Shown here piece after piece: positions 3,210 to 62,990 of a DNA stretch of 64,000 bases (positions are counted from its first letter, which is position 1; every line of letters begins with the position of its first letter). Location of the stretch: NCBI GenBank assembly GCA_021234155.1, contig JAJEKV010000026.1:2542001-2606000 (forward strand), written 5' to 3'. The DNA is from Isoetes taiwanensis. Lineage: Eukaryota > Streptophyta > Lycopodiopsida > Isoetales > Isoetaceae. The translations under genes were made by a program, and so were the position numbers. The notes under the pieces were generated by a model, which worked only from the letters and a program-made list of their open reading frames with translations, was not told the DNA's origin and did no database searches.

Positions 3210-3325
3210 ACTTATTGTCTAGTACACTTTGTTGAATGTATTGCAATTGCAATATTTCTTTAAACTTATTTCTTGTTTATATTGTCTATCAAGACATATC
3301 ATTATCTGTTATATATATATATATA
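3210..3325. repeat. AT-rich spacer with (TA)n tract at 3310-3325
   Basis: Short AT-rich spacer that ends in a (TA)n run. The run directly abuts the transposon end beginning at 3326. Confidence 0.6.
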
Positions 3326-3375
3326 CAAGTATTTGTACCGTGAGAGGGTGTATGAAGTCGAATGTACGTACATTA
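3326..3375 (-). other. 3' terminus of the Helitron-like element (copy A)
   Basis: Read on the minus strand, this ends ...CTCTCACGGTACAAATACTTG, then T and a TA run. It matches the end at 18030 at 29 of 35 positions. The inferred element containing the Rep/helicase gene would finish here. Confidence 0.5.
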
Positions 3376-4203
3376 GGAAGTATAACCCAAGTTTTTGAAG
3401 AAATCTATTAGGAGTCCGAAGATACGGCAAGTATTGCTTAAGATTATACAAACATACACTGCAAAACATACCCAATGTGAATGATCTACGTAGATTCCCT
3501 TCAGATCCCCTTAGAAAACAATAACAAATTCCTGACAATGCAGAACCTCAGGTTAAGGATTGTGGCCTTCTTACTGCCAACAATTAAGGGAACACATGGT
3601 TAAAGAAATTAATGGCAGTATTGCCACCAAATTCTATAATTATTTTGCACGTTGTACTTATTAGGGATCCTTATTTTTCAATTAAAAAAAATGGACTTCC
3701 AAAGTTGCAAATAGCCGTGGAATAGGTTGTAAGTTCCTTTAGGTTCCATCTAATTTATTTAGAAGTTCACCTCACGTGTTTGAACTTTTTCAATCAAATT
3801 TATAGATGTTATATTTGGGATGCCACTTTCAAAAGTAATCAAAATTGCAATATGGCCATTACATGTAACGTAGATATCTAGGTAACTTTTCTAAGAATAA
3901 ACCATCTGAATCGGCATGCCCTATTGTGCATTTATGACTCATAGTCCCTTTGGTAATTTGAAGATGTTGGATTGTTCAATATCAAAATGAGAGGACTGGA
4001 TCACCATCCCAAAATTAATTTCTTCATAGTGCACCCGAGGGCCTGTTGGTTTATCTGTTTTCCCAGACATCCTTTGTTTTCATTTATCTTTCTTTCATCA
4101 GTTCTGCAAATAAAAGTTCTTTAATGCAATCTACTTCTAATTTGAAGGTTTAAATGGCTTCTTCATCAAAGTACACGGATTCTATTTTGAATAAGAAAAA
4201 TAG

Positions 4204-4302
4204 TAAAACCTTTTTATCTATCCAAATGCTATTCAACAATCCGGTCAATTGGTAAAACCTTTTTATCTATCCAAATGTTATTCAACAATCTAGTCAATAA
4301 AC
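4204..4302. repeat. two-copy tandem duplication, ~49 bp
   Basis: The segment AAAACCTTTTTATCTATCC plus about 30 further bases occurs twice head-to-tail with three or four differences. Non-coding 3' part of the Helitron. Confidence 0.8.
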
Positions 4303-4904
4303 AACAACAAAAAACAAATTACACATGAAGTCGAAATTGCAATGTCTAAAGCAATTAATTTCTAATTCTTCTTCAATCTCACCCTTCTCCCATACTTGGA
4401 GCATGAAAATCTATAGAACCTGCATAGTAAAATGTTTTTAAATATAATTGCTACCATTCTAATGCTCAAGACTTTTATGTGATAATCCAAAGCTTTAAAC
4501 TACCTTATTTACTTTCAACTACTGCAAATACCAATTTATACGCAATTAGTAAGTAGCAAGAAAAATGTCAAGTCTCATTCAATCATCCTAGCATTTGGGT
4601 GCAAAGGAAAATAGCATTCTGTAAGAAAAACAAAGGATTAAACCTCAATCATGCTATGTTCAGTGCATGCAAGAATTGAAACATCAAGATACACGATATT
4701 AAAGTTGAATCCCTAGACTCTTTTTCATATTCATTATTATTAAAGCTCTCTATAAAACATTCTCAAGTGGTCTTTATCAGAAGTCTTCTGTCGCAGATTT
4801 TGCATTCCAGATCCAAGCATGCCTAAAAATACCCTTGGCAATGGCCATGTCTTCGGGGAGCCTTTGGCAAAGCTCTCAGGAGGTTCAAATCGAGTGACTG
4901 GTTT

Positions 4905-5110
4905 ATCCAAAAACTTTTGTTATGAGCATAATAGAAATATGTTAGCAACTCTTCAAATATTGCTAATGTAATATCAATGTCCAACAACCAATAGTTATTT
5001 ATAGTATACAAAAAACTTTTGTTATGAGCATAATAGAAATATGTTAGCAACTCTTCAAATATTGCTAATGTAATATCAATGTCCAACAACCAATAGTTAT
5101 TTAGTATACA
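4905..5110. repeat. two-copy tandem duplication, ~100 bp
   Basis: About 100 bp beginning CAAAAACTTTTGTTATGAGC is repeated almost perfectly in tandem. The near identity implies a recent duplication. A minus-strand open frame running through both copies is a by-product of the repeat. Confidence 0.85.
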
Positions 5111-5149
5111 ATACCCATTTACATAGATGTATCCAAGCTTACAAACGTA

Positions 5150-5638
5150 CAACTAATACTTAATAAGAATTGAACCGATATTCTATTCTAATCATTTACA
5201 GGAAAGCAATACTGAATCAATACCAATCTTTAGAACAGCAGTTCTGAATAGAAAAAGTTATAATATAGCTGCAAGTCCAGATACTTCCAAGAAATTAATC
5301 TAAGAAATGAGCAAGTCCAAATACTTCCTAAAATCTAAGAAATGAGCATTAAAATATTCAATTCTAAAATCACAGATAAACAAAAAATCAGCTCAGCTTA
5401 AATTCGATTACAGTCAAAAATTAATATCCAAGAACCAATCATTATTTATTTAAAATCCAATACCCATGTACATTAATGCGTCCAAGGTTACAACTAGATA
5501 TCATGACATTCTAAAACATATTCTTATGGATTCAAAAACATATTTATTTTAGCATTGATTCCCACAACCATATACTATCCCATAAAACCAAAAATAGTGA
5601 TTCTGTTTTAGCGTAGGAATTCGCCAATCACAATGCTC
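5150..5638. other. non-coding AT-rich 3' region of the Helitron
   Basis: No gene or RNA was recognised. It contains a short ~40 bp imperfect duplication near 5270-5350 (CAAGTCC.ATACTTCC). Confidence 0.5.
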
Positions 5639-6679
5639 TCATAGGAGCAGCTCTCTAAAAACAACATTTCTCGTTGTTACAACAGGACTATCACTATTAT
5701 GTAAGATAAGGACATCCTCCCTTCGTCTGATCCTCGTGAGAGCTGTGTAAAGTTGCCCATATGCAAATACATCTGTCCGTAAATCTAGAACTATCTTGTC
5801 AAGTGTGAGTCCAAGACAACTGTGAAATGTTGTTGAGTAAGCAAGTCTCAATGGCAATTGACGTCGATGGATGGTGAATGGTGAATTTCGTGGCTGATGA
5901 AAGAAGTCCACTCTAGAGATTGGGTGGATGTAATCAGCAGATACATTATCAACCCCAACAATTCTAACAGTGACATACTTCTCATGAAGTTCATGGACAA
6001 CTACTCTGGCATTTTTTACCAAACCTTTGTCTCTATCCAATAGCTTCATGAGATGACAGATTGATCCTTCTTTTAGGTGCAATGCATGTTTTGGGAGCGT
6101 TGGATGATCATAACTATGAAGGAAGTCGTTTTCTGCAAGCCCACTGCTATGGAGCACTTGGTCATTTTCTGTTATGGAGCTACAGCTGAAGTAAACCTTC
6201 TCTCGTGCAACTAGACGATCTAGGATAGACTTATTGAAGTCATCAACATATACATTTAAAGGAGAAAGGAAAGCTCTTTTTTGACATAATGAAGGCGATG
6301 AGAGTATATCACTAGGAAATAAGAATTCACGAGCATCGTCAATGTTATTTGTTGTCTGGAACAATGTCAACGTAACCGTATCACATGACCAGTTTTCGCC
6401 CACTGATGTTACACATTCAACGAGCTCCAAATCTACTGCATTCCTTATTGGTTGGTCTAATTTGTATATAATGAATGCATCCCATGTGCGTGAGGACCTG
6501 ATGGAAGCTTCAAAAGTAGCTTGTCTACCTGCTCCCTGGACAATGGGCGCTATTTGTCTAAAGTCTCCAGCAGCAATAAAACATTTTCCACCAAATGGAA
6601 GGTTGTTTCCACAAATTTGCTGGAGCAAGGTATTTACTGATTCTATGACGGCCTGTTGGCCATTGGGAACTCGTCCCAA
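5639..6679 (-). pseudogene. Helitron Rep/helicase, C-terminal helicase part
   Basis: This 346-codon frame continues the Rep/helicase after a one-base frame change; its first ~10 codons overlap the upstream frame and its ATG is not a true start. The sense match begins at about VIESVNTLLQQ. PIF1-family helicase motifs follow: motif III GDFRQIAP (residues 38-45), motif V as CLGLTLDKIVLDLR (288-301), where most relatives have SQGQT, and motif VI QLYTALTRIRRRED with the presumed arginine finger near residue 316. The frame ends at a stop by 5639. Its role in the intact protein would be 5'-3' unwinding of the displaced strand during rolling-circle transposition. Confidence 0.8.
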
Positions 6680-9600
6680 ATGATGGCATCTGCCTCTATA
6701 AGGAGCGCCGCTTTCTCAGATGCTGGATTGATTATTGACTCAATTCCAACATTATCATCAACAACAGGTATCTGAAATAAGCTATGCGCTGTTTTGCCAC
6801 CTGGATACAACAATCCAGCCAACCCCGTTGTTGCACAAGGCAGCACAATCCTCTGATGAGATCTAATTTTCAAGCATATAGCATTCAAGAGGAAGGTCTT
6901 ACCCGTACCACCTTGCCCATATATAAACACAGGTTGTCTTGGTGTTGGTTGTTGTAGCATGCTCATCACGTGATCATATATTTGTGCCTGCCTTACATTC
7001 ATGATATCACGCATTGCTCTTGCCTGCTCCATGTATGAATCATGATCTGGGAATTTCAGCAACTCTTGCAGCACGAAATCTGAGTGGATACTGATAGGTG
7101 GAAGCCCGAAATCCGTGACAGTCTTATTGTGCTGAGTAAGCGTATTTTCTATGGAGATAAGTGCCTGTTGATCTGCAAGCATCACATTAGAGTTTGTATT
7201 GATGTAATAATCTTGTATCAAGTCCATATGGAACCTATTCCATAAATCCACTGCTTCAGCACCATCAAGAATTAAGATTGTAAATAGAAAACGAAGCTGT
7301 GAGGGTGTTTGTAGAAAGGATATTGCTTCTTGCATTGTGGATATTGGCTCAGATCTATCTTGTAGAAGTCCCATTGCAGTGACAGTTTCTTGATAAGTTC
7401 CGTAGACTTGCCCATTATATGTTTTTAATTCCTGCCATGTCCTTGGAGATGTATGCAAGAGTAGCTGCCGGAGATAGAATAGTTCCCCTTCTCGAGGCAT
7501 CACCAGCCTTATTCTGCAAATGAGATCTCTTTTTGTTCTGGCACGCACAATATTTCTAGGAATTGCGCCATGACCTATTTCAATGTGCTCGTTAGGTGTA
7601 TGCTGCGCCCGACTCAAAGGCAAAAATGTGTAGCGTTCATAGTAGTCCACATATGTCAGATCTGAGAACTCAGGTGTTAGTGGTCTGAGGAAATACCGGC
7701 TCAGTAACGATGTCGTTTGATCTCTTCTATATCTTATTGAAAATCCTGCTTCAAGGTGGATAGGAAGGCACTTCACAGCAGGTTGTTTTTCAGTGATATG
7801 GAATTTGAGAATCCGCCATGCTGCCTCTGTCGATGACAAATATCTGGCAGTTATATAATCGTCCACCTCACTCCGATGTTGCTGCTGGGAACCAATATGG
7901 TACTGTACCTTATCAAACCCTTTATATATGTAGGTATATAAATACATGAAGACATGAACAGTGGCGGCAATATCTACGTTCACATGGCAATCAAGTTGCT
8001 TCAATAGAAAAGCACAATAAGGAACAACATTTGTGTCTTCTGCTGTACGTCTTCGATACTGCACATAACCCTTAGCATCAATTCGTGTTGATTGGTTAAG
8101 AGGTCGGGGATACTTCCAACAGCAAGAACCATCCTTGGAGCAACGGTTAGAATGGTGGTGGATCATGTATTTACGTACCATTGTTGCTAATGCGTCGTCA
8201 TCAGCTGGTATCTCCGCTGATATCAAAGAGTCGATCATTCTCAGAGATATATCATATTTTGTTTTAAACACTATGTGACCATGAGGAAGTCCACGCTTCT
8301 GAAACTCAATGACATGCAACATGTACACAATTGGTCCAAAATATGAACGTAACAAAGCCTTTGCTCGCTGGAAACGGGCATGGAATGAACGGACAACTAT
8401 TACTGGTATCTCTGCTGATGTTTGTCCAGGCTGTAACATTGCTTTAATTTCTGGCCAGTCTGGATTAGTTGTGATTGTCACAAAAAAACTTGGGGGTCCT
8501 TTTGCTCTAGTGAGAGCAAGTGCATCTGCAATCTGAACTGAGCACCAACTCTTGCAGCCAAGAAAAGATGAAGGCAATCTCGTTCGTGACCATTCTGGTT
8601 CGTCCTCTTCTGCAAAGTCCTGATCTAGACTTGGCACATTTCTGTTATAACGACCAGTTGCTAGAAAATTTAGCTTCTCTTCTTCGACCCTAGAATACAT
8701 ATCAACAATATATTCACATGCAAGCCGCCCTAGCTGTAAGAACCTTTGCTCATGGATTAGTCTACATCTATACCAATCTAGTTGTGATAAATGTTGTTCA
8801 TTATCTGGAGACCAACCCAACGTTCCGTGTGGATATAATAAAGGATATTGCAGGGGCTCATATTGTGGATCTAAGATGCTTATATATACTGGCTGTGGGT
8901 TATCATGCAACCAGAATACAACAGTTCTTGGATTTACTGTCATTGAGTTGTTGGCATGTATGACAGCAGCAACCTCACCTGTTGCAATTGTCCCATTCAA
9001 CCTTAGCACTGCTGTCTCTAGTTGCATGCCCTGCATCATTCTGATCAGTCCACAATACGGATTTACATTTTCCAGTGCCTCTCCTATTTGTAAAACCCAA
9101 TCAGCTCTTACACCATGCATCCCTGCATGTCTGTATCTATCACTTTCATCATAGATATACCAATGCAATGGTTGATGTGGTTTGGACACACGGAAAAGTT
9201 GGTGATATGTCCGCCCCATCAGCGCAATGGAAGATGGAGTTGGTAAATCAACAAATTGTCCATCTGCACAAAGCGCAGTGAAGCAAAAGAGCCGGTTCAA
9301 TTTTCGACTGTCTGCACTGAATCCTCGTTGAGTATAAAGATTTGCAAGGGTAAGAGGCACCTCTGGTAACAATGGAAGCATGCGACGACCATTGTTACAA
9401 CAGAACGTATCACTTTCATCTCGCAGCAATCTAGCACCACAATATATACATGACTTACTCCATAGAATTGCAATGGGCGTCTGGGCTTGCATCTTACATA
9501 TTTGACGTTGCCAATGTTGCATTGCTAACACATGACTGTCACTAGCACTTGCAGTCGTGGCTCGGTCATTATCGGCATCTGACTGCGCATGATCAGTATA

Positions 9601-10146
9601 GGGGCTTTCATTGGCAATCGAATGATATTCTGAACCTAACAGCTGGTTGTCTTGTTCTGCTCTTTTGTCCCTGTTCCTTCTGCACTGTCTTTTTGCTCTC
9701 TGATCAGCCTTTCTTTCCTCAGAGAGCTCAGCATACCATCTCCGCTTACGTTCGTTTTGTTGTGACCTGCTATTGTCAGCTAACTGAGCACTAATATCAA
9801 TGCTTGCACCTGGAACAGTAATTTGTGACTGGCTTGACGAAGTGTTACGATCCGCAATCAATACACAATTTGAATCCACTTGTTGGTTATGAAATTGTGA
9901 AACAGACTCGTCTTCAGACACGCCATTCAACGAGTCGCTACCTTGCTCTGCACGCTGCTCTGCTGCATCTTGATTGCTTTGACCCCCTCTATGCCCCATA
10001 TATTCCCTTCTCAACCTCAGGTCATTCTTCCTTTCATCTGATAGCCTAGCATACCATCTTCGTTGATATTCATTTCGCTTCAATCTTTCCAACTCCTCAC
10101 TCGTGTAATTTCTATTTGGATCTATCTCTACCGCTCGCCTTGGCAT
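6643..10146 (-). pseudogene. Helitron Rep/helicase, N-terminal Rep and first helicase motifs
   Basis: A 1167-residue frame. Residues 25-50 and 130-155 are two basic repeats with the core RRWYA.LS.ERK. A CIYC...CC zinc-finger-like motif (233-250) precedes the Helitron_like_N region. The HUH nuclease motif is PHGH (621-624). The catalytic tyrosine region is YLYTYIYKG (735-743), against YLFKYIYKG in most plant Helitrons. PIF1 helicase follows: Walker A GQGGTGKT (1077-1084) and Walker B IWDEFPM (1156-1162). Translation then stops at MANRPS because of a one-base indel; the C-terminal helicase continues in another frame at 5639-6679. The ATG at 10146 gives a normal-looking start. Family role: nicking and strand transfer in rolling-circle transposition. 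This copy cannot make a full protein as written. Confidence 0.9.
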
Positions 10147-11639
10147 GGCTTTTAATGGTGACTAGATATGTTGCGAACATACACAAATCACTGTTGACCT
10201 ACGCTAACATAGGAAACATGTCACAATTGCCACCAAATAATGGCACCGTTTTCAGTAGCACATAATTAATGCCTGTCTAATTGCATCCATATAAAACATA
10301 GGAAATTACTGGACAGAAAAATGCAAAAATCACATAGAGCCTTATGGTTAAGGGTCAGTGGACTAGCGCTCTTAACTACATATACGCAGAAGCAATCAAG
10401 AGAAAAAGCAGAACGTACAATGAGTTCGCTTGACTACCTGGGCAACATCAACTTCTTTCAAGCAATAGATAGCAGACCATCAATTTGATACTCCGCCAAA
10501 CACCGATTTGTTGGTCATGAACTGCATGCAATTTGTTCAATTCACTATCATTAGTATAGTAGATAATGTGATGAAAGCATCGTCAGAAATTAACAACCAT
10601 GCTCTAGTTTAGTTCCCCCATACGTCTAGCTTCGTTGTGAATAAGGACTTTCAGCAATTTACCAATAAAGAGGAATAACTGTCATATCATCATACCTTAA
10701 ATATTCGCTTCCTTGTCGTTGCTTCCCTTGGTTCCCAGGAGCTTAAGATGCAGTCTGCAAAGAGCACGATCACACCTACCACATTGTTTAGGCCAAGCAA
10801 ACAACATGACAAAAAGAGCAAAAGAAGGATGATGCATGACATTTCTTCTCTGAATTCCAAAAAACCCACTTACCTAGCTCTCTTCAACGCCCTGCACAGA
10901 GATAGGATAACAGCAGGACCTAGGTAAATTAAGAACTATCACACCATAGAAGATCCAAAAGAAACTGACCTCAGACGTAAAAGCCAGATTTGCACCAAAG
11001 TAGAGGCTAGATGCAGCACCAATTCGCAGCCTTGTAGCCTAATTTTCGCCGCCAGGCAAAAGTGCAATCTTCTGCTCATGCCGGAATCATCTTCACCACT
11101 TCCATTTGCAGAACATTCGCCACTGTACATGAAGCATACTTGAGATGGCGTTTAAATTATCTGGTTCCAAATTTATATCAAATAACTGTCATGATCGTCG
11201 GCAGCGTAGGCTCCGTCTCAACAGAGAGGCAGATCCGGCCCCCCTGTCGGAGACTTGCATATGCCACGTCAACTGGTCCATTTTTCTCAACCTCGGGGAC
11301 TCCATATGCCTCCTGTGACTATTTTGCAAAGTTGAATGTTGGCAATGCATTGACCCGATTATGACAATTATGCATGTCACAATTTTAAGTTCAGTACATT
11401 AATCCACACACCCATCGCATCATCCCAACATGCTCACCTTTACTACCATTCATAAATGCATGTCACATCGGCTGCCGTCAAATGCCAATGGCTATACCTC
11501 AATAAAACTAAATGCCATATAAGACCAATAGCCATCGTATATATTCGGTGAACCCATCATTTTACCAATGGTTGTCATCAATTTCTAGGAACATGGCCCA
11601 TTAATAAATATTGTCACCTCATTATTTCCTCATTAAATA
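10147..11639. other. Helitron 5' leader, no gene recognised
   Basis: About 1.5 kb upstream of the Rep/helicase start. Several 60-100 codon frames occur on both strands, but none resembles a known protein. It may hold the promoter of the minus-strand gene; no specific element could be defended. Confidence 0.4.
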
Positions 11640-12045
<406 letters not shown>

Positions 12046-12051
12046 TTATAT

Positions 12052-12360
12052 ATATACGATTATATAAGTGTACCAAATGTTTGTAACCCGAGGTGTCGCC
12101 GTCTTGACGGTTTAGATTGTCGGATCCGACGGTGCAGACGAAGCCACGTCATATTCCCCAAGGAAGCCACTTAAATACAATTATATAAGTGTACCAAATG
12201 TTTGTAACCCGAGGTGTCGCCGTCTGGACGGTCCAGATTGTGAGATCCGACGGCCCAGACGAAGCCACGTCATGATCCCCAAGCAACCCACTTATTTTGG
12301 GGCTTCTAATCTTAGCCCTTGGAATTAGGGCATTTCATCTGGGCCGTCCAAATTTTACAT
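12052..12360 (+). other. GC-rich 5' subterminal segment (copy M2) with 121 bp tandem duplication
   Basis: Starts TATATACGATTATATAAG. A 121 bp unit (12056-12176, 12177-12297) is present twice and includes GAGGTGTCGCCGTCT and GAAGCCACGTCAT. The second copy is nearly identical over ~100 bp to 51240-51360 (copy M6). It continues into GGGGCTTCTAATC and GGGCCGTCCA motifs shared with 40775-41280. Confidence 0.6.
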
Positions 12361-13141
12361 CTAGGTTATGTGCAATGATTGCAAATTGATGAGTTGGCAC
12401 TAACATTTAATGATATCTTTAGAAAAAAGAGGCAAGTTAAACTGGATTTATCCCAACCGTATAAAGTGCTGCATCGGTGGCTCATAATTTGCCTCATGTG
12501 TGCCTTAAGCAAGTGAGGTGGCAGGCAACATTTATGGTGATCCGGATTTAGCCACGGGCGTTAAATGCCATGTCAGTGACGTGCCTGTTGGGTATTTTCA
12601 GAAGGTTGGAGTAAATGGGAAGATCGAAGTGAAGAGTCGACTAGTCGACCCGTCTCTCATCTTTTATCAATTAAATTCGTCCATTTTCTTTTTACTTGAG
12701 CGGCATAGTGCCGATGAAGATGAAAGACACCATAGCTGTGCTTGCATAGCGGATCAAGAGGGCAAGACAGGGATTTTCCTTCTGATCCTTTAACATCCAA
12801 TCTACTTCATTGCCTTAGAGGAATGTGGCTGGTGTTTAGTACCGAAGCCGTAGCTGAGAATCTCTCCAGATTTTGAAGAATTTATTTGGCAGTAATTAGG
12901 GCAACTGTTTGCTTAATCTTTCTGTCTGAAGCTTGAGCTTTTCATCGAGGTAGTGATTGCCGGATTTGAAAACGAAACAGTATCGATTCAATGTTTGGAA
13001 AAGGAATAGCAGCGATTCAGTGTTTTTCCCATCTGGGTATGAATCTCGGGGGGCCGGGGTTTGCTTTCGGGGTCATGAACTCGGGCGGTTGGGCATGGAG
13101 CGGCCGCAAACTCAGAGCTACAACCACGGCCTGCGATCGCG
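12361..13141. other. no recognised gene; possible upstream part of the captured MYB gene
   Basis: Moderately GC-rich sequence. Plus-strand frames of about 90 codons (12518-12793 and 12957-13247) give no family match. The second frame overlaps the MYB exon in another reading frame, so it is at least partly a shadow. Confidence 0.3.
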
Positions 13142-13249
13142 ATTTCGGCGATGGGTCAAAAGCAGATTAGAAAGCCTTATACTATTACCAAATCGAGGGA
13201 AAGCCGGGACCCGAACAGAACATGACAAGTTTTTGGAAGCCCTGTAGTT
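13142..13249 (+). pseudogene. REVEILLE/LHY-CCA1-like MYB exon, broken
   Basis: The sequence reads ISAMGQKQIRKPYTITKSRES and then, one base out of frame, TEHDKFLEAL. This is the first half of the single MYB repeat of REVEILLE-type circadian transcription factors, which normally read RKPYTITKSRESWTE.EHDKFLEALQL. Two lesions are visible: an indel near 13205 that replaces the conserved Trp region, and a TAG at 13245 where the family has CAG (Gln). A proper donor, TT|GTGAGT, follows at 13250, the conserved intron position. The remaining MYB exons (SHAQKYF) were not found downstream. It therefore looks like a captured gene fragment, not a working clock gene. Intact members bind evening-element DNA in the nucleus. 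Confidence 0.75.
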
Positions 13250-14308
13250 GTGAGTTCTCTTTCTTTCTTTTCAATTTTACTCTTACTCTAGTTTTCCGTA
13301 TTTTTCTACTCTCTCACCTTCTTAATGGTGCCATCCATAGAGTTAAGACAAATATGCATCACAGAAATCTTATATTGTAAAGAGTTGGACGAAGATTTCA
13401 GTAGGACACCATTGATGTCAACGGTTTAAAAGCTTATGAGTCCTCGTAGTCCTTATATGGTGGAGACTTATATGGTGGAGAGAACTATAGGTCTGGAAAT
13501 ATCCTGCGTTTCTATTATTAATGGAAATATCCTGCATTTTTATTATTAATGATCTTGAAAACGTGCACAGAAATTGTTGCATTGTTGCTCAAACATTGTC
13601 ATTTGGGCTGGTCTTCCATTTTGCAATGAATCTGAGACCTCTGCGGGCTGCTATATGCTGTAAGAATGCTTAGAAAAGTAAGCGAGAATAGAGTGGAAAC
13701 ATGGAGCAGATGCTTTTATACCATTGTACTCTGTAAAGGAATGACCACAAGGAAATTTTCTTTTGTTTGGGTTTCATTCTCTGTTATTTGGTTTTTCCCA
13801 AAGCCGCTGCTACTGTGTTCCAGTATTAAGCCTAAATAAATAGGACGGATTTTATTTAAGGTATGCCCAAGTCGTAGTCGTTTGGCGGAAGCCATAGGCG
13901 GCATTCAACAACTGGCTTTGTTTTTGCTAAGATACCGACTGGCATTCAACAGTGGGTCCGTTTTTGCTAAGGTTTGATTGTATTCTAGCGCCATAGCCAA
14001 GCTTGTGCAATCTGTTGGTCGGCCGATTCTGCGAAAATATTATGGTAGGCACATGGGTAAGGAACGTGTTGGTTCTGATCTTGGTCTATCTCATGTTTGC
14101 GGTTTCTGTTGCAGATACACAAGAGCTTTGTACCAACATGCGTGCATACTTTATGTTTGCAATTGGAAAGATTGAATTTTGAAGCATCCAAAATGACAAA
14201 GTTCCTTCGGCTATGATTATTTTGACGGCCTATTTTTAATGCCACCTGATTAAGCAAAGGTGCCATTTTTGTGCTTTGAAGATTTTTTCCCTTTTGCCAC
14301 AATTTCAG

Positions 14309-15790
14309 ATCTCATAATTCAGTCTGTGGCAGCAAGGTTTCGAGTTGTTCAAGTAAGTAAGTATGATTTTATCTGTAAAAGAAATGAGAAGTGGCCCGGG
14401 CTGTACACATTTGTTCTTTAGATTGACATTTAGCACAGCATTGCAGGTTGGAATAATAAAAAAGGAGAATGATATTACTACGGTTACTAATGACATTCGT
14501 GAAGGTAAAACAAACTGCTGCCATTAAGTTAGATTTAAACATTCTGTAGCTTAAAACTGCCCGTCAAAATATTTTCTAACAGTCATAGAGATTGCGCTTG
14601 CATTAAATATATTATGCAAGTACTGGTGAAGCTAGACTTTTTTTTGTTTGAAACTTTTTCAAAAGAGGTTGAGGTGTCGCATGATTTTTGAATCTGCGCT
14701 CTAAAGCATGGCTATGCAACCCCATCACCAGATCTGTTGCATTGTTTCAAGACAGATTGTTGCACTTCTAGGGGGATTCTCTTTAGCTGTATCATTCAGA
14801 ATTATGATTGCACTCATGCCAGTGCAAAAGTACTTTGTGTCTAATTCAAGCAATGGGATGCTTCTAATACATACAATGGCATGCTTCATCATTGCAATGA
14901 TCCTTCAGGTAAACAATGTTAGAAAGTCAGTTGGCGTTCATAATCTAAATGAAGCATTCATGCTATTTCTACACTTCTAATTCCATGCCTCTATAGGTTT
15001 AGACAAGCTAATTCAAAGCACTCTTGAGAATGAAGACGTCAGGTTTCCAAGTAATGTTTTCGAACGCTTTGAGGATCACATAGTTTGTTTATCTTTCTGA
15101 ATGATCTCTGAAAGCAAATACTGTTTAGCAAAATAGATGGATTTTACCAACAACTGCTGTAGGATTGGAATTCAGACAGAAAATTTGACACTCCTGCATT
15201 AAATATTGCCGGGTATTTATTAGCTTCTGCTAGCTCAAGAGGAAAACATGAAGTATGCAGAATAAAGCTTCATATATCTTACCATTGCATAACGTCTAAT
15301 TCAGAGGACCAGTCTTGAACTCGCCATTATTCTCATTTACTAACAATGCCTTCTGCCATGTATTAAGATTGGCTTTGGAGCTGCATCTACCATTTCTTTG
15401 ATGGAAAGCTTGCATTTGCAGCTAAAAAAAAAGTTTTTTGACTTTTTGATTTATCTTGCTCGTAGGATTACTCCAACTCTGTGCTTTTTTGTTGTAGACT
15501 GTGGATGCCATGATTATCGAATTACACTAATTAGCAAATCAAGTAGGTGAAGCATTGGGCTATGTAGTTGCATGTGGCCTCGCAATTGACCATTCCATCA
15601 TGACATCAACAGATTCCTAAACTTTGCATGAATGCTTGTTGCATCCATATAAGGAGGTATTAGCTCGAGAGGGATTCAACCATTGGCTGTTCATATGGCT
15701 ACTCTGTCCACATGGAGAGCAAGCACAGCAGCTTGAAGGTGCCCATGTTGAATTTTTGTGTGGTGTTGCTAACCAGATTGGTGTGAAGGT
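14309..15790 (+). pseudogene. series of exon-like segments, gene not identified
   Basis: Short open segments bounded by good acceptor and donor sites: 14309-14352 (ends RFRVVQ), 14447-14504 (VGIIKKENDITTVTNDIREG), 14997-15042 (LDKLIQSTLENEDV), about 15162-15255 (FDTPALNIAGYLLASASS) and 15624-15790 ([18 protein letters not shown], then GVANQIGVK before GTGAGG). The spacing and splice signals suggest a captured multi-exon plant gene, but I do not recognise the protein and the join between segments is uncertain. Confidence 0.3.
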
Positions 15791-17955
15791 GAGGCTTCTC
15801 TTCTATTTTCGTTTAACGTAGAGATGTTGACTCTTTTGCGTTATTCAAAGATAAAAAATGGTCAAATTGTTGTCTATGATCAGATTGTTGTCTTCTTTTC
15901 TTAAGTCATATTGGTAAAACCTGGTAATGTACTGGTAATGTACTGTTCGATCAAACTGGGGTTGCTAAAATGATAAACTTTTGATTAAGCAAAATTGTGG
16001 AGGAAGGTGTTCATTCACAAGGAATGGAATTAACATCCCAAGGTGCAAGGACATATTGGTATGTTCAAATCTATGTTGTTTTTGGCATTAGCAGATATGA
16101 TGCTATATGAAAGGATGATAAAATAGAATCAACCATTGCTATGGTCGACTAACATCAATGTTTTTTACTGTTTACTGATGGTCCATGTATTCCAGGAACC
16201 ATTGTAATGGTTAAGTATTTTAAAGTTGAAGGTTATTTTGCCAGTTTGATGTTTGGCCAATAAAATTTGTTAATTTAAGAAGGGACCAAGAATGTTTGCT
16301 TTTGTAGAACTGGATGAGGCAAGTAATGTGCGTATGATGCAATTTGGTTCATGCTCATACTATTGCAGGGTACAAGTTTGAAAGGCCTTGCATTGTTTCC
16401 ATGGTAATTGTTTCCATGGTATGAAATTTCTAGCATCTGTGAAATTTGTCAAAGTCTTGAATTTTCTTATTGATTTCTGCATGCATCGGCCAATTGCTTT
16501 GATGTGGCGAGACACGAAGATTCTTGTGCCCAACAAATTTGTTAACGCTTTTCGCTTTTTGCTAGAATCTAAATTGTTGATCAAGCAGTTTGCATAATTG
16601 GTGTTGGTGCGCCTCACGCTGTCTTTTATTTTGTTAGTTAATTGACTGGAAAAGCTTATAGAGTAAAATGGCGCTCCCTTACATGCTGTTACATATATTT
16701 TAGTTGTAGCCATGTTAACTCAGGCATATCCTCTCCAAAAAATATCCTCTCCATTGGTGGAACTTGCCATAGGGTGTTATAAATATCTCTCCTAAATGCC
16801 TTAGCCTTCGTAGACAAATCAAGCGCATGCATGATCAATATCGTTAATATTCGAGTTTGCAACTCAAAGGTAGCAAGATCATGAAAGCAAGCCATCAAAT
16901 CGTATATTAAAGAGACCAATTGTCGTCAATTTTGCTATTGTTTTATAGTTGTTGCTAAGTTGATTTCCATAATGAGACAAAATTGTTAATTTATTTGAAT
17001 CTTCAAGCAATTGGATCGTGTATGCAGTCGGGCCTGCATAAAATAGCAAACAATTGCACATTTGTTTGTAGATCTGTCGACAGTGGCAAATTTAATCTTG
17101 CTTTGTTTTATTTTGACAATAGCATGTCTATGTGTCAAGGTTGAAATGATATTTTAAGTAGAAAGCACCATTATGATTTGAATTTTGGGTAGCGTTAAAA
17201 AGGGAGTTTCTATCTATTGAAATAAACACCCAAGGATGTGAGTGATACTATTTGGTCTCTATTAGTAAGGACTATTAAACAAGTATAACACATAAAGACC
17301 AAACATTCAAACCTTTGGTCTAGACATTTTTTTTATACTGCATTGCTAAAGTTCATCGCCCTTCCTTATGCGACTACCCTCTAGTGTATGCCTTCAAAAA
17401 CATGATTGTTAAACAATCATGGCTATCTGCTTCCCAAGTAGAAGATTTACAAATTGTTAAATTATTTTGCACCTTCACACTTGTTGAGGTTCTTTATTTC
17501 ATCAAAGAAGACATTGAAATTGACTTATTGAAACTAAAGCCACAACGCAGTTGACATAGCTTAATTGGGCGTGTTACAACTTTAATATCACTGCCAATAT
17601 TTTAGCAAATGCATGTTCCTTCTGTTTTGGACAAATTGAACCATCATTATCTTAGAAAAGAACAACCCTTCGCTGCTAGAAAATGTTCAATTGATTTAAC
17701 ATGTTCAGGGTTTCAAGGTTGTTAAGTTCCGAATACCATAGCAAAATCTTAATTCTTAAGGGTAGTTGAAGAATATACGTAGCGACCACTTTAATGAAAT
17801 CCGCTGTTGAGCAATCCAATAAAACTTTTATGGAATATAAGAAACACACACAGACTTGCTAGGGAGGGTTAATTTATTAGAGTTTGAGCAGGTATTAACC
17901 GCAACTACAATTTTCACTTTGACTTTGACTTCCTGGGTGTAGCTTTTAGTTGATT
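15791..17955. other. AT-rich 3' part of element, possible degraded coding remnants
   Basis: No gene was recognised. Two open stretches read like degraded protein: minus strand 16689-16919 (AKAFRRDIYNTLWQVPPMER) and plus strand about 17380-17552 (AFKNMIVKQSWLSASQVE). Neither could be assigned to a family. Confidence 0.25.
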
Positions 17956-17961
17956 TTGTAT

Positions 17962-18028
17962 AACTTTGACTTTGACATCTCAGCAAGCTATCAGTCGACT
18001 TGATATACTCCCTCATAGTACAAATACT

Positions 18029-18030
<2 letters not shown>
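17962..18030 (+). other. 3' terminus (copy D), arm of a 70 bp inverted repeat
   Basis: Ends ATAGTACAAATACTTG, then T and (TA)n. It pairs with 28690-28760 in inverted orientation at about 90% identity (roughly 7 mismatches in 75 including the TA edge). It also shares CTCCCTCATAG with other termini in the window. Confidence 0.7.
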
Positions 18031-18086
<56 letters not shown>

Positions 18087-33165: not shown

Positions 33166-33210
33166 TGCATTCCTTCTAGTTCATGTTACAATGGACCGTA
33201 GGCCATGGAG

Positions 33211-34480: not shown

Positions 34481-34484
34481 TCAC

Positions 34485-44610: not shown

Positions 44611-44731
44611 TAGGAAAATTTCCTGCAAGTCCTAAAACTATTCGGAATTCATAAAATGCAGTCGGAAGCTCCCTGTTGCTAATACCTCAAACCGGAAATA
44701 ATATATATTCAATACCTATTTTTTTTTTTAC

Positions 44732-47945: not shown

Positions 47946-49069
47946 ATATAATTAAGAACGATTTCATCACATCATCTGTATTGGCACATTAAACAAACCA
48001 TAACTGAACAAGTAAGATTACCAAGATTGAATGGAGCCCTTTTTGTCATCTTAATTTTTTATTGCCAATGTTGCTGTCAAGTGATATCAGTACATATATT
48101 AGTGGTGACGAGTTCGAAAACAATATTCTTCGTAGTATGAGTGTGTAGTTCTTTCGCTGCCATATTAACTTTATGCATATCGCTATCGCGTTAAAAGCAG
48201 TGGGGAAAATTACAATTGGATCTAAATATAGGTATATGTGATTAAAAGGCTACAGCCCATTTCTTCACTTAATGCAACTTAGAAGCAAAACCACCCATAC
48301 TTAACGAAATAAAGTGAAGTGCATTTGTTTTAGTGACGCCCGATTTTTTTTGCACCTTTCTTGGATTCTTGGAAAACCTAGCCTACTTATTAGGGAATAA
48401 TATAGTAATAATGTTGATGTGGTGTGTGCATTGTATCTCCAATGAGATGTTGCCTATGTGGCATGATGTAAAAATTGCTTCAATGGTGAGAGAGGTCGAG
48501 AAAGAGAGATAGGAGTTGGGAAGTGGACGCTCTCACCTTTAAGAGAAAGTGAGAGATTTTTGTTTTCTCTAACTAGAATTAACGGTATTTCTCGTTGTAG
48601 ATTTGTTGCTAAAGCACATATTTACACCTCTAATGTAATATGCACAGTAGTGAAAGCTGACGCAAGCTCTGGCTTAATTATGTATAGACAGGTGTTGCTA
48701 ATACAGTGAGTGTGAGGCAGCCAATTTTTGGTTTTGCAGAATCTGCTAAAATTGAAAGCCTTAACTGTATCCCAGGCAGTAATGTGGCTTCTGTAATCAG
48801 GATTGCATTCTGTAGAGATAGAACTGGCAGTGCATAAAGATATACTTAGAGAGAGGATGGCATGTATGGAAAGAAACCTACAACAACTTATTCTTTAAAA
48901 ATGCGTGCGCCATGCTTTTGGGATGAACTCGTGGTGATGTCGCTGTCGAGATAACCACTATTTTATTTTAGCAAGAATTGGTGATTTATGAAGTTAGTAT
49001 GGAGTCTCAACATCAGAACTTGATGTCAATATTCCAAATTAATACCAACTGCATATCATTTGCATAGGC
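47946..49069. other. no recognised gene
   Basis: About 1.1 kb without convincing open frames or motifs. Confidence 0.3.
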
Positions 49070-49430
49070 AAATTGGAAAATCTCAAGGAATTTTGATAGA
49101 ATCTCAATTAATCTTGCAATAATTTGGTGGAACGTTAAGAAATCTTGGAGAATCTAGAGAAATTAGTTAGACTAAGGATAACAATAAATAAATAATACCT
49201 AAGAATGTTGAGGAATCTAGAGGATCTTAAGGAATCTATGGGAATCATGAGAGAATCTTTGAGAAATTAAGGGAATCCAAAGGAATCTTCATAAAATCTT
49301 TGAGAATCTAAAAGAATCATGTAATGTCTAAGGGAATCTTCATAGGATCTTAGAGAATCTAGAGGAACCTCAAGAGAATCCTTGGAAATCTAAGGGAATT
49401 AGAGGGAATCTTTTTAAAAACTTTGAGTTA
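49070..49430. repeat. GAATCT short-period repeat block 1
   Basis: Degenerate repeats of (G)GAATCT(n)4-5, spaced mostly 10-11 bp, with variants such as AGAATCTAGAG and GGAATCTT. The block ends about 230 bp before the proposed 3' terminus at 49656. Confidence 0.85.
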
Positions 49431-49627
49431 ATTTTTTTATTTCTCTGAACCCAATAGGATACAGTCTTTAATTTCTAACATTCTTGCTAAATGCAAAATT
49501 ATCAGTTCGTGTGTGGATTTTAACTTCTTGCTTGACTTTCATTGCTGTAGTGTAATCTTATCTTAGAAAGATGGGTGCACGTATAATTCAAACTATCTAT
49601 ACATTTTCGTTTCATCCCATTTTATTT

Positions 49628-49656
49628 TATCCCATTGATAGTACAAAGACTTGTTA
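49628..49656 (+). other. 3' terminus (copy I)
   Basis: Reads ATCCCATTGATAGTACAAAG then ACTTG, followed by TTATATCAGTTATATATATA. The latter string is also found at 12039-12056 next to copy M2. It is followed at once by a GC-rich 5' segment. Confidence 0.5.
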
Positions 49657-49689
49657 TATCAGTTATATATATAAAGGTATATCATAAAC

Positions 49690-50110
49690 TTTGGTATATA
49701 ATGTGTCTGATTCTTACATGCCCGGATGCCGTCCATTTAAAGTGGGGCCAGTGAGGTGGCAGCATCAGGGCCATCCATTCCTTATGGGCATGCATGGAGG
49801 CATGCATGGGTCATGCATGGGGGCATGCACCACATCTCTGGACCGTTGGATCGAAAGGGGAGGATAAATCCTAGCCCTTGATTTTTTGTAAGGAAGGTGC
49901 AAGGAAGGTCCCTTAAAGTAGATTTGGTGTAGCAGATCTTAGCCGTTGGATCAAAAAGTGAGCATGAATCCTAGCCATTAACTTTTTAATATTAAATTGA
50001 TTTTTTTTAATTTAAAGGAGGTGAGGTGGCACCCTCATTAATAAAAAGATAATGAGGTGGCAAAACATTTATGATTAGACTTTCTAGGAAGCTTCCTTTT
50101 GTTTAATCGC
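49690..50110 (+). other. GC-rich 5' subterminal segment (copy M5)
   Basis: Contains GCCAGTGAGGTGGCAGC, several GGGCATGCATGG motifs, CTGGACCGTTGGATCG, GGAAGGTGCAAGG, a second CCGTTGGATC and GAGGTGGCACC. The same motif order occurs in M1 (inverted) and M7. Confidence 0.55.
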
Positions 50111-50246
50111 CTTCAAAGGCACGTAGCTTGCGGTAGAGGGGTCGGATCATGGTGGGACCCACGCCATTGGATTCCTCTCGTCGAGAGCTTTCCAATGAGT
50201 GGTGCTTTGGCACTATTTCGTCGCAGTTGCAGCCAACGTGATCGAA

Positions 50247-51160
50247 CACTAAGAATCTTTTTGGAATCTTAGAATTTTACGGAATTCATGGTAATTTATA
50301 GGAATCTGGGGAATCATCAGAGATCTTAGAGAATCTAGAGGAATTCCAAGAGAATCTTAGGGAATCTAAAGGGAATCCATAGGAATCTGAGGGAATCTAA
50401 AGGAATCTTCATAAATACGTGGAGAATCTAGAGGAATCTTGATGCAATCTTGGAGAATTTAGAGGAATCTTTATAGAATCTATGGGAATCTTAAGAGAAT
50501 CTTTGGGAAGCAAAGGGAATCTCAAGAGAATCTTTGGAAAATTGAAGGAAATCTATAGGAATCACGAGAGAATCTTTGAGAAATTAAGGGAATCCAAGGG
50601 AATCTTCATAGAATCTTTAAAAATCTAGAGGAATCTTGATGGAATCATGTAGAGTCTAAGGGAATCTTCATAGAATCTTAGAGAATCTCGAGGAATCTTA
50701 AGAGAATCTTTGGGAATCTAAAGGAATCTTTCTAAAAGCTTTGAGAATCTAGTGAAATCATGATAGAATCATGGAGAATTTTCCTATAATCTAAAGGAAT
50801 CTAGGAGAATCTTCATCAAATCTTTGAGAATTCAATAGAACTACATAAAATCTTGGAGAATCTTGGGAAATCTTGTGGAATCTATGAGAATATCAAGAGA
50901 ACTTCTCTGAATCTAGGGAAATATAAGGAAATTTAGAGGAATCTTCATAAAATCTAGGAGAATCTAGGAGAATCTAGGAGACTATACATAGAATCTTGAG
51001 GAATCTTGGCATAATCTTTGGAAATCTAGGAGAATCTAAAAAGAATCTTTGTGAACATAGGAGATCTAAGGGAATCTTCATAAAATCTTTGAGAATCTAG
51101 GGGAATCTTCATAGAATCATAAAGAATCTAGGGGAATGCTTATAGAATCTTCATTGAATG
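50247..51160. repeat. GAATCT short-period repeat block 2
   Basis: About 900 bp of degenerate GAATCT repeats, for example GAATCTTAGA, GAATCTCGAG, GAATCTTAAG, with a period near one helical turn (10-11 bp). It ends some 55 bp before the terminus at 51215. No protein is encoded. Confidence 0.9.
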
Positions 51161-51189
51161 ACTTTGCATTGGCTTCCGGTCGAATTTGT

Positions 51190-51215
51190 GCAGTCCCTCG
51201 TAGTAGAACCACTTG
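51190..51215 (+). other. 3' terminus (copy J)
   Basis: Reads GCAGTCCCTCGTAGTAGAAC then CACTTG, followed by TATATATATACAATTATATA. It matches copy D at about 24 of 34 positions. It is immediately followed by copy M6. Confidence 0.5.
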
Positions 51216-55060: not shown

Positions 55061-55063
55061 TGC

Positions 55064-58957: not shown

Positions 58958-59041
58958 ATATCACTACTTATGTAATGCAGTCTATTTTGTTCTTAAAAAA
59001 ATAGACGTGTAATATTTCTGGGCTGAGAGTAACCCTGGCGC

Positions 59042-59545
59042 TTGACACATACATTTTTTTTTTCATTTCTAAAATCAAAGAAAATGTTGCATGGTCGACA
59101 CGCAGATTTTCTGCCTTCTTATTCTGCAAGCAATCTCAGCGCTGGATTCACAAGCTCTACTCCGGCATTCCTCTGCTTGAAGGATCTGTGGGGTGCGGGA
59201 AACAATTCGGCCAGAATTTCCCGAGCAAACAATAGTTCTTCATTCCGAGAAGATCCATCACGGCCTTCCACCAGATTACAGGGTTTTAGAAATGCAGTCC
59301 GCTCCATCATTTTTGCATCGCCAAAAGTTTATTATAGCATGAACGATGGCTATGTTTTCTACTTTGCAACAAGGCGTGCCACTCTTTCGGTTGAAGTTGT
59401 GGAACAAAGCTCTTCTGGCCATCGTTGTGTTATGCTCCTATTTTTCCATGGCAAATGCCTTCCGGTTAACTAGCAAAAATAGTCGCAATGGAGCGGGGCT
59501 CTGCGACATTCGACATCTTGATATAGGTCTTTGGATCGAACCCTA
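59042..59545 (+). CDS. open frames of unknown nature
   Basis: Two overlapping plus frames (143 codons from 59042 and 66 codons from 59346) are open with unusually even base use. The first contains DLWGAGNNSARISRANNSSS. A minus frame is open as well. No family was recognised; it could be the 5' part of a captured gene. Confidence 0.2.
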
Positions 59546-60539
59546 AAAATATGTTTCAAAGGTGCAAACTTGCCTTCCTTTCCCGGATTTACGCCTTAGA
59601 TATTTGGCGGGGTCGTAGAGCGTAATAAAGGAAAAATCCCCATATTTATTTGCTTCTTATTTGCTTCGGATAGGTGCCAGCTATATTTCAAGTCCTAGAT
59701 TAATCATAGTGGTCTTGATTGCATTTCGAGTTGTTCGTATGGAGATTGGTACATTGCGCATTATGGAGCCCGAGACATATCTCCGATATCGAGTCTCCGC
59801 ATAATCGTGGGCGATGAGTAAAGCTTTGCTATCTTGAAGTAAGCATTTTGTTTGTATTTTGAGACCAATACTCTCTTCTTGCCCTTTAAAGTCTTTTTAG
59901 AATCGAATTATGATGCCCTTTTAGTTGCATTGCACTTCATAAATTGGCCCATCGCGACCGCCATATGTTCTGGCCGCTTTCTTTGAAAATGCCACTATAT
60001 CGATTCTTCTTTTGCAGATCCGCACATATCTTTCGGCCCGTTCTTTGTTTTGGTTTTTCATGCCTTTGTCCTTTACGCCATTTTCTCGGTGCTTGAATGG
60101 CGTTAGATGTTGTTTGTTTGAGTTCCTTGAAGTGTTCTTCTTTTTTGAAGTGTTGTGCGCGAGTCAGGGGCGGTGGAGCAAGCGGGCGGATTGTGCGAGC
60201 ATGGACGGCCATCTTTGCTGAATCGGATCAAACGGAACTGCGGCATTATGGATCATGGATCACGGTGTGAGTTTCGCGTGGCCCAAATCATTTCGGCATG
60301 GCCGTGCCAGATGCAAATTGTTTGCCTTTGGCACGGAGGTTTGCATCTACAATGTACCCTTTGAATCGGTCTCGAATAGACTTTGAATGTACCCTTTGCA
60401 TTCACAATGTACCCTTTGAATCGGTCCGATGGTCGCTTTTATAGGCTGCTTCTTTGCTTTTACTGCAGATGTGAAGGTGACAACATATCTAATTGAAATA
60501 GAGCCATTTGGTTGCAATCAAGGTTATTTTTTCTACACT
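59546..60539. other. no firmly recognised gene
   Basis: An open plus segment at about 60266-60390 reads VSFAWPKSFRHGRARCKLFA then FGTEVCIYNVPF. It is protein-like but unassigned. A duplicated CAATGTACCCTTTGAATCGG lies at about 60350-60425. Confidence 0.3.
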
Positions 60540-61062
60540 TTGGCTAATCTTATGGACTACGATATGGGAGTGTGTCTATGGCAAAGATGGTAAATTTAAG
60601 CCCGGTGGACAAAGTCATGCAACTTAATCTCTTCATTTTCTAAGAGATAAATAATGTTAGTGGTTCAAAATGCATTTAATGGATTTCTATGTGTGCAGAG
60701 TGTTTGTGACATGGCTTTGTTTCACATCGGATTCAAAGCGCGTCGTTCTCGCATCTAAGGATGGTTCAATCGAGAATATGGAATATAAATGGTTAGAAGA
60801 TTTGAAATTCACGAACCATTATTCCCTTTCACGCTTTACTTACGATCGGTCATGTAATTTTAGTCAAGTAAACCACCTCGATGAAGATCCAAATGTTTGA
60901 AGTCATTTCCTATACCACCTTGTGATGAGAAAGGAGAAATTAGGCACTACGATATGATTGCACTCTCTTCGGACAACAAGGTCCTTGTCTGCGACACATG
61001 GTTCAAATCCCTACAATGGTTAAATATTGAAACCGAGAGGTGTTAGATCTGACATCGAATGC
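60540..61062 (+). pseudogene. TBL2-like WD40 repeat protein fragment
   Basis: Plus-strand pieces read WECVYGKDGKFK, then VDKVMQLN in another frame. After an intron come VTWLCFTSDSKRVVLASKDG, SQVNHLDEDPNV and, one frame on, LKSFPIPPCDEKGEIRHYDM then FKSLQWLNIETE, and finally VLDLTSNAHDG. The order matches the WD40 blades of transducin beta-like protein 2 (KVWE..Y.KDG, VTWLCFTP.S, ASKDG..R.WN, DEDPK.LK.FPIP). A TGA at 60898, frameshifts and a damaged WN motif make it non-functional. Only the middle of the propeller is present. Its strand agrees with the surrounding putative element. Confidence 0.75.
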
Positions 61063-62678
61063 ACATGATGGTAATTTCCTTCATCACCTCTTTGTCCTCA
61101 CTTAGAGGCGTCTCTTGAAGATGATTTTGTGGCATAGATTGACTTGGAAGTCACCTTTTATTCCGATAGAACACCGAATGAAGATTTGATCTTGGTTTGT
61201 GCAAAGAAAAATCTCCGGTTTATGTTGGTCACCCCACCCAATTCTAACAGTAACTTTTGTCTTTTATCCCTTCCAAACTCATTTGCTTAACCCAAGGTTC
61301 TTTTGTTGTGTGTTATTCTCTATTTGGATGCGATCGTGGGCGGGATGATAATATTAGCAAGTGGAGGGGTTGATAAAAAGTGAAATTATGGTTGTCTCCA
61401 CCTTAGGCACAAGAAGAGATATGATTGGTCCTGAGGTATCAGCATCAATCCATTGCAATGGTTGGTGGGATTCTCATGAAATATTGCAAGTCCCATGATA
61501 TCTTACACATCAGTCGATCTACGTAAATGGCGATGAAGGGTCCTAATCCCGCATGAACTTAGCAGTCTGCTTCCCATCATGAAGATATTTCACTGAGTTA
61601 TCTAGAATTATGATATATAATGTGAAGCGTTAATCTATTTTTATGACTTTATTTGTTTCCTTTGTCTAATACGTGAAGTCTTGGTAAGTCATTTTTTTAA
61701 TCAAGTAGAGAATAGACTTAAACTTGGTGAAATCAAATTAGGAAATTAGGTAAGTAGGGAAAACAAGTTGCTAATGCAATGGAGGGTTGCCCTCTTAAGA
61801 GAAAATGTAGGCATTTATCGGAAGAGGAACGGTTGTTTAAAGAATGCAGATGTATGTTGATAATGAAAGTAAAGCATGAGAAGCAAGCCATAGGTAGGAA
61901 CGAAAGGAACAGCAAACATGAGTATGAAACTAGAGAGGGCTAAAGAAGGAAAGCCGAATTTAAAGGTTTAGCTCAACAAAAAACACAATTTAGGTGCTTG
62001 AACTCAAAATCGAGGTCAATGGTTTAGCTCAACAAAAAACACAATTTAGGTGCTTGAACTCAAAATCGAGGTCAATGATCTCATGACTGAAGCACCTCGG
62101 CCTGCCAAAAAAAATCAGTGCCTTCCTTTCGTTCCCTTTTTTTTGAACACACCCATAATATAACATTCAACGGTTGTGCTTTCGTTATATAATGGAATTC
62201 TAAACATTCAATAACCTTATTCTAAAAAAGAAGAAAAAAAAAATAAGATTGGAAACTAGATTTTCTAGATTTGGACTTGATAAACTTTGAGATTCGGAAT
62301 GGTGAGCCTCCTAATCACTTTGTAATAAAAATCCATTGCCAAGCAAGTGGAGCAAGATTGCACCATGGACTGACCATAGGTTTGTTAGTGCCAAGTTAGG
62401 GGGGCTTTATGAGTAATTCCATGAATTGAGGCATTTGACCTAGCTAGATTGGTTCCTTTGAACTACGACCTTTGTTGTGCACACAAAGCATTTAAATTTG
62501 GAAAGTAAGTCAAATACCATTCGCCAGTCATCTAAACTATAACACGATGCACACAACTAGATCATCTATAACTATTCTGCTACCAGACAAAATTCTAACC
62601 GATAAGCGAGTCGGTAGATCTTGGGCACTGTGAACGATATTTTTTGTTTCACTCAATTGGGTACAGACGAGGGGTTGG
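61063..62678. other. no recognised gene
   Basis: AT-rich. Contains the tandem duplication at 61967-62077 and poly(A)-rich stretches near 62225. No coding family was seen. Confidence 0.35.
61967..62077. repeat. two-copy tandem duplication, ~55 bp
   Basis: GGTTTAGCTCAACAAAAAAC followed by ACAATTTAGGTGCTTGAACT and CAAAATCGAGGTCAAT is repeated exactly. Confidence 0.9.
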
Positions 62679-62728
62679 GAAAGAGAAATGTTCGCGGCGG
62701 CCTTGGCCGCCGCGATAAATTTCTTGTA
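62679..62728 (+). other. palindromic 3' terminus (copy K), identical to copy H
   Basis: The same 50 bp as 40665-40714, including the 10 bp GC stem and the CTTGTA end, followed here by TATATAAACACAC. The flanking sequence upstream differs completely from that of copy H, so only the end is shared. Confidence 0.7.
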
Positions 62729-62734
62729 TATATA

Positions 62735-62990
62735 AACACACTTTGATGTGTGGGACACATCGGTTGCTCCTTTTTATCTGGGCCGTTGAATTTCAGGGGT
62801 TAAATCTCGGCCACATATTTTAGATGTGTGCATATGCATGGGCATGCATGGGGGCATGCCCCCCATCTTTAAACCGTTGGATCAGAGGGGCAGGTTAGAT
62901 CTTCACCGTAGATTTTTGGGAAGGTGCATTGAAATTGCACAACAATTAATATGTGAGGTGAGGTGTCATTTATTTATTTAATTCCTTTTA
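62735..62990 (+). other. GC-rich 5' subterminal segment (copy M7)
   Basis: Follows the terminus directly. It contains CTGGGCCGTTGAATTTCAGG, GGGCATGCATGGGGGCATGC, TAAACCGTTGGATCAGAGG, GGGAAGGTGCATTG and GAGGTGAGGTGTC, the same order as M5. It marks the start of an element that runs out of the window. Confidence 0.5.

Follow-up and report, generated by a model that had tools for sequence, protein, structure and literature searches.

Helitron families of Isoetes taiwanensis with hairpin-less CTTG ends and probable targeting of TA microsatellites

The DNA analysed here is a stretch of 64,000 nucleotides (nt) from Isoetes taiwanensis (contig JAJEKV010000026.1, positions 2,542,001-2,606,000; genome of 1.66 Gb in 1110 contigs), which we call the window. 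It holds a chain of Helitrons, most of which end in CTTG beside runs of TA, and one of which carries a Rep/PIF1-helicase gene. The following features were recognized (a slash in a sequence marks the junction of an element with its flank).

3326..11939, minus strand: element A, a Helitron with the Rep/helicase gene; its 3' CTTG lies at 3326 and is followed by a TA run
5639..10161, minus strand: Rep/PIF1-helicase coding region, in two overlapping open frames (6643-10161 and 5639-6715)
12042..18030, plus strand: element B, from TATA/TCAGTTATATATATACGATTATATAAG to AGTACAAATACTTG/(TA)25; the ends presumably form a pair, judging by their orientation
18083..28672, no strand assigned: 3.8-kb tandem repeat of about 2.8 units; the 18030 and 28692 ends lie in its TA tracts
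28692..37212, minus strand: element C, with the 3' end AGTATAAATACTTG at 28692 and a GC-rich 5' part at about 36940-37212 whose tip is degenerate; putative pairing
40678..40712, plus strand: hairpin-type 3' end of family H, its element lying to the left; it adjoins a minus-strand 5' end of the TCTATTA type at about 40713-40755
40770..49653, plus strand: element D, from TCCTTATATATATACAAC... to AGTACAAAGACTTG, with a sulfate-transporter fragment inside; ends presumably paired
49659..51215, plus strand: element E, a non-autonomous Helitron of 1557 base pairs (bp), TATA/TCAG...CCACTTG/T, with many near-identical copies in the genome
51216..58956, plus strand: element F, with the end AATACAAAAACTTG; putative pairing
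58961..62726, plus strand: element H, a hairpin-bearing Helitron of 3766 bp, TCACTACTTATG...GGCGGCCTTGGCCGCC...TTTCTTG
62727..64000, plus strand: element G, which extends past the window edge

The CTTG ends lie at 3326 and 28692 on the minus strand and at 18030, 49653, 51215 and 58956 on the plus strand, and two palindromic ends finish at 40712 and 62726. An earlier note on this DNA, which had proposed one large family of elements with shared CTTG ends and GC-rich 5' segments, had placed all eight of these ends to within 0-4 bp. The single family was not borne out, since the two palindromic ends, near-identical to each other, belong by the copies read to a separate hairpin family (H). The 3' motif of the other ends is TAGTACAAANACTTG, in family E AGTAGAACCACTTG. 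A 14-mer search with at most three mismatches gave 19 matches in the window against 9.8 expected, only twofold over chance; ACTTG(T)TATA occurred six times against 0.9 expected, with a maximum of four in 60 first-order Markov simulations, and AGTACAAATACTTGTATATA occurred 274 times in the genome against none for the reversed control. Among the GC-rich segments, six of seven scored positions reached at least the 96th percentile of 300-bp windows, but the one after 62726 only the 78th. These segments proved to be part of the 5' end, as had been supposed, but not its tip, which is TC plus an internal TA run preceding the GC-rich segment.

To characterize the 3' ends, we read the flanks of 30 copies taken irrespective of flank, 15 of the C type and 15 of the E type. 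The C-type sample consisted of 15 consecutive entries (C976 to C1019:18362857) from the 100 listed among 164 genome places, and the E-type ends were the 15 contained in the 3' sides of 20 E copies. CTTG was followed by T in every copy of both types; in 12/15 of each (24/30) it led into a TA run of 10 nt or more, while only 0.46% of T positions in the window begin such a run. In agreement with this, 47 of the first 58 C-type matches listed continued with exactly TATATA, and 10 of the other 11 started with T. When both sides were read, all 14 E insertions had the form TA/TC...CTTG/T, placing the insertion between A and T in 14/14 and pairing the two ends across single insertions, a pairing whose absence would have counted against the earlier note. 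Of the target-site duplications of 8-11 bp that the same note would have taken as refuting its Helitrons, those of 9 and 11 bp were excluded in all 14 insertions and any of at least 8 bp in seven, the other seven lying in pure TA and being uninformative. At seven loci (L072, L079, L092, L105, L106, L171 and L172) two 3' ends face each other tail to tail across one TA tract, which indicates that one tract takes elements from either strand.

The 5' ends were equally well defined. A query from element E (49659-49840) gave 764 first-look candidates, of which the 40 scored, the window's copy included, were 96-100% identical over the aligned part. Among 20 junctions read, 17 were TA/TCAGTTATATATATAAAGG with largely different preceding sequence, and the remaining three (L062, L064 and L070) had changes at the beginning or within the TA run. 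F-type 5' ends were intact in 9/10 relatives (counted by eye; a stricter pattern gives six) and G-type ends in 8/10, all intact ones being preceded by TA. The 5' TC terminus of the Helitron superfamily is therefore present in all three types, and within 2-5 nt it is followed by a TA run of the element's own (TCNNTTATATATATA), which the 5' end thus carries itself. At four loci (L043, L143, L144 and L145) CTTG and TC were joined directly, tail to head, with no intervening TA, while the reversed control gave none. L143 and L145 have near-identical surroundings, so that the joints represent about three events, one of which joins two E copies. These joints point to TC and CTTG as the terminal bases of the element, and they suggest rolling-circle products.

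Repeated 5' stubs were also observed in front of intact 5' ends, in the window at 40758-40785 (plus strand) and about 40713-40755 (minus strand) and at L077, L102, L104, L107, L164 and L167. They comprise TCCTTA three times and TCTATTA three times in the window, TCCCTTA three times at L104 and L107, and TCACTA twice at L164 and L167; each ends in TA, and most match the type of the element behind them. They could have arisen by slippage, self-insertion or re-initiation. A model that takes the two TCCTTA stubs left of element D for the tips missing from F and G failed its own prediction, because intact F relatives start with TC(TGTT, TGCT, AATC or AGTT) and G relatives with TCATTA.

Filled sites were also compared with empty ones. 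The 18030 end lies in the TA tract of unit 1 of the 3.8-kb repeat, with 25 TA units after CTTG, and its counterparts in units 2 and 3 (21870 and 25670) hold eight TA units without a Helitron. The 28692 end lies at the distal end of unit 3; at the equivalent places near 21064 and 24866, units 1 and 2 are empty. Flanking sequence of L090 and L096 is similar to this 3.8-kb repeat (81-84% over 52-61 nt). Insertion also occurs into the 5' TA runs of other Helitrons: the E copy on C996 splits one (...TCCCTTATCCCTTA/TATATATATACAATTATATAAGCACC), and at L104 and L107 the corresponding run is intact with one TA fewer. In the window, F and G, recognized as 5' ends by their relatives, lie directly behind a CTTG end with the TC tip gone, which fits insertion into their 5' TA runs: F lacks TC plus 4-5 nt because the end of E abuts its TA run, and G lacks TCATTA because the end of H abuts its own. 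Element A lost its TC tip in a (TA)n tract at 11940-12041, fuller 5' relatives being found at L068 and L100. Because further elements land in 5' TA runs, the pairing of several ends in the window is not straightforward. At 3299-3325, immediately beyond the 3' terminus of A, TCATTA/TCTGTTATATATATATATA represents remnants of two distinct 5' ends of Helitrons, which A interrupts.

To determine whether the ends form a hairpin, the last 45 nt of each were folded and compared with shuffles. E-type ends (n=15) gave a mean z score of +1.64 and C-type ends (n=20, of which 11 were chosen for being without TATATA) of -0.14, both folding like shuffles, while hairpin-type ends of family H (n=3, one cut one base short) gave -7.6. 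The canonical 3' hairpin is thus absent from E and C ends, with one exception given below, and present in family H. The latter has the 5' end TCACTAC(C/T)TATG in most copies read, preceded by A in 10 of 14 (TA in nine), T in three and G in one. Its 3' end, read in the 12 best-ranked copies other than the window's own, is a hairpin and CTTG followed by TA in 12/12, with a TA run of at least 6 nt in 0/12. Apart from its CTTG end, family H looks closer to the canonical Helitron form; no Rep gene could be assigned to it. The copies at 40712, 62726 and L064 adjoin TA runs of other Helitrons, so family H can use such runs. The proposed insertion into (TA)n therefore held between A and T for the hairpin-less families, but not for family H, which is not bound to microsatellites.

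The Rep/helicase gene lies in sense within element A, as had been claimed. Minus-strand 10161-5639 encodes the Pfam domains Helitron_like_N and PIF1, split across two frames, and the protein aligns with Helraiser (7lcc; E 1.1e-82, query residues 425-1168). In this alignment HGH and YLYTYIYKG of element A stand opposite HAH and YLFKYIYKG of Helraiser, which we take to be the HUH and two-tyrosine Rep motifs. A Pfam scan of the two element A frames gave no match to an endonuclease domain, a Helentron trait. A genome search for relatives gave 3380 first-look candidates, 67 of them scored, with 89 matches; among 12 autonomous relatives whose 3' flanks were read, six (C1067, C1093, C1025 at 16.75 Mb, C930, C1035 and C1034) had a TAGTACAAANACTTG/T(A) end downstream in the same orientation. 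Autonomous copies also showed 5' ends, TATA/TCATTATATTTATATAATT on C930 and TATA/TCTGTTATATATATAAAGG on C1093. Because it lies downstream of these relatives, two of which also show the 5' end, the CTTG end is most likely the 3' end of the Rep/helicase-bearing Helitron. Near 2958 of L152, CCCCGGGG...CTAG/TTAAAT lies downstream of another Rep/helicase copy and looks like a canonical CTAG Helitron end.

Three further observations concern what the elements and the repeat contain. Element D includes a sulfate-permease fragment (47440-47871, minus strand; Pfam PF00916, E 5.5e-17), a probable gene-fragment capture. Element E consists largely of degenerate repeats of about 31 bp (49078-51150; AATCTATGGGAATCTT...), a satellite-like cargo, with similar repeats at L040, L043 and L049. 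Two of the longest frames of the 3.8-kb repeat (18083-28672) had no Pfam match.

Taken together, the termini, the target, the absence of a hairpin, the association with Rep/helicase, the paralogous empty sites, the nesting and the direct joints make it very probable that these are related Helitron families with a linear, hairpin-less CTTG 3' end, insertion between A and T in TA microsatellites, and a 5' end of TC plus a TA run. The Helitron identity suggested earlier stands on the Rep/helicase gene, the TC 5' end and the A/T insertion. The protein of element A, or a similar Rep/PIF1 helicase, would presumably serve these families and nick at TA/TC; rolling-circle copying would then run to CTTG and be released there despite the missing hairpin, and the copy would be joined into a TA tract. 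Later copies land inside or beside older ones, and as every copy comes with a 5' TA run of its own, the elements stack into the chain seen in the window.

Several observations weigh against this interpretation. The empty tracts that the earlier note had proposed to look for exist, but all are paralogous, the filled 28692 copy also lacks about 16 bp beside the tract, and of the 14 insertions only one (L056/L096, where any length is excluded) rules out a 2-bp TA duplication. The 3' end is CTTG and not the CTRR of canonical Helitron1, although CTTG-ending exceptions are described in the accessible text of PMC4289320 and PMC4778049, and one C-type end (L078) folds well (z -3.66). The downstream CTTG ends of autonomous relatives may belong to a nested neighbour; five of the 12 had no CTTG end within about 5.4 kb downstream, and C224, which is nearest to A (96% over the query), is truncated some 20 nt short of the end. 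Finally, the repeated 5' stubs lack an account in a Helitron model.

Other explanations fit parts of these data. Mutator-like or other elements with terminal inverted repeats might be aimed at TA microsatellites, as MuTAnT of Medicago is, which inserts mainly into (TA)n tracts (PMC4486113, as far as accessible); this is extremely improbable here, given the Rep/helicase gene, the duplication data above and the scarcity of inverted repeats, with none of at least 6 nt in A and E, one of 7 nt in B and only an A-rich 8-mer in H. Ordinary Helitrons with a general liking for AT-rich DNA could mimic microsatellite targeting, and Helraiser is described as favouring AT dinucleotides in AT-rich surroundings (PMC4778049, accessible text). 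We consider this very unlikely, since the C and E ends lie in long TA runs in 24/30 copies and those of family H in 0/12 in the same genome, where the H flanks are AT-rich too.

The tracts might instead be made or lengthened by insertion, repair or slippage. The 25 TA units at the filled 18030 site against eight in its two empty counterparts favour this, as do the variable TA repeats that excision of maize HelA2 is described to leave (PMC10095026, accessible text), but the empty counterparts already contain TA tracts and elements also insert into intact 5' runs of other Helitrons, so that this explanation is unlikely on its own; lengthening after insertion, alongside targeting, is possible. 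The head-to-tail chain could also have arisen as a rolling-circle concatemer instead of by separate insertions piling up. The direct CTTG/TC joints, one of them between two E copies, are what a concatemer would give, but in the chain D-E-F-H-G members of different families are linked, and the joints show TA tracts or truncated 5' tips, which makes this quite improbable. The E-F joint has three exact copies, each time leading into a different F-type element; this also speaks against a concatemer, and a composite of E and F moving as a single unit was rejected for this reason.

Compared with canonical Helitrons (Helitron1, with Helraiser/Helibat1 as the tested case), the families described here share the Rep/PIF1 helicase, the 5' TC, the A/T insertion and the absence of inverted repeats, but differ in the CTTG end, in the missing hairpin of families A-F, in their confinement to TA microsatellites and in the 5' TA run. 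As CTRR and the hairpin were looked for and not found, we regard them as a variant of the Helitron kind and not as canonical members. The asymmetric inverted repeats, hairpins at both ends and T-rich target of Helitron2/Helentron elements are absent, the target being TA/T, as are the terminal inverted repeats and 9-bp duplication of Mutator-like elements. In the open-access literature we found no Helitron bound to TA microsatellites. Lepidopteran helitron-like elements reportedly occupy (GAAA)n microsatellites, going by the title of a 2010 article by Coates et al., with another repeat unit and in animals. According to the accessible parts of the sources, HELPO2 of Pleurotus ostreatus has the same Rep/helicase, CTTG end and AT insertion, but differs in a subterminal hairpin and in having no microsatellite target there (PMC4289320), and FoHeli3-5 of Fusarium oxysporum are likewise autonomous Helitrons without a 3' hairpin, but with Helitron2-like asymmetric inverted repeats, 5' TGCCT, 3' CTCCTGT and no target preference known there (PMC5148889). 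MuTAnT shares the plant TA-microsatellite target, but is Mutator-like, with inverted repeats and a 9-nt duplication, and the accessible text on it names Micron of rice and TAFT of maize as preferring (TA)n microsatellites (PMC4486113). CTTG ends, AT targets, clustering with other Helitrons and hairpin-less Helitrons thus each appear in the accessible parts of published work.

Programs that demand a CTRR end together with a hairpin would probably overlook the CTTG families, although 271-764 first-look candidates came from single 5'-end queries. The Helraiser work, in its accessible text, proposes that the 3' hairpin signals the end of a transposition round and reports that hairpin-less Helraiser still transposes (8.8%, corrected), some products then ending in CTTG (PMC4778049). 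Hairpin-bearing and hairpin-less Helitrons with sharply different targets in the sampled copies (0/12 against 24/30 in TA runs of at least 10 nt) in one genome therefore offer a natural comparison for the hairpin model. A speculative and rather doubtful idea is that the microsatellite replaces the missing hairpin, (TA)n after CTTG folding back on itself in the displaced strand to give the stop signal that Helraiser has in its own end; the mean fold energy of the 40 nt downstream of CTTG was -4.7 kcal/mol for C-type and -5.2 kcal/mol for E-type ends, against -2.0 for H flanks and -1.9 for random 40-mers of the window. If so, only copies in TA tracts would terminate cleanly, tying the lineage to TA microsatellites, and through its 5' TA runs the lineage would itself create the sites at which it lands and stops, a self-extending niche. 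Whatever ends the copying, the 5' TA run offers a concrete reason for the pile-up of Helitrons, which has been reported from maize.

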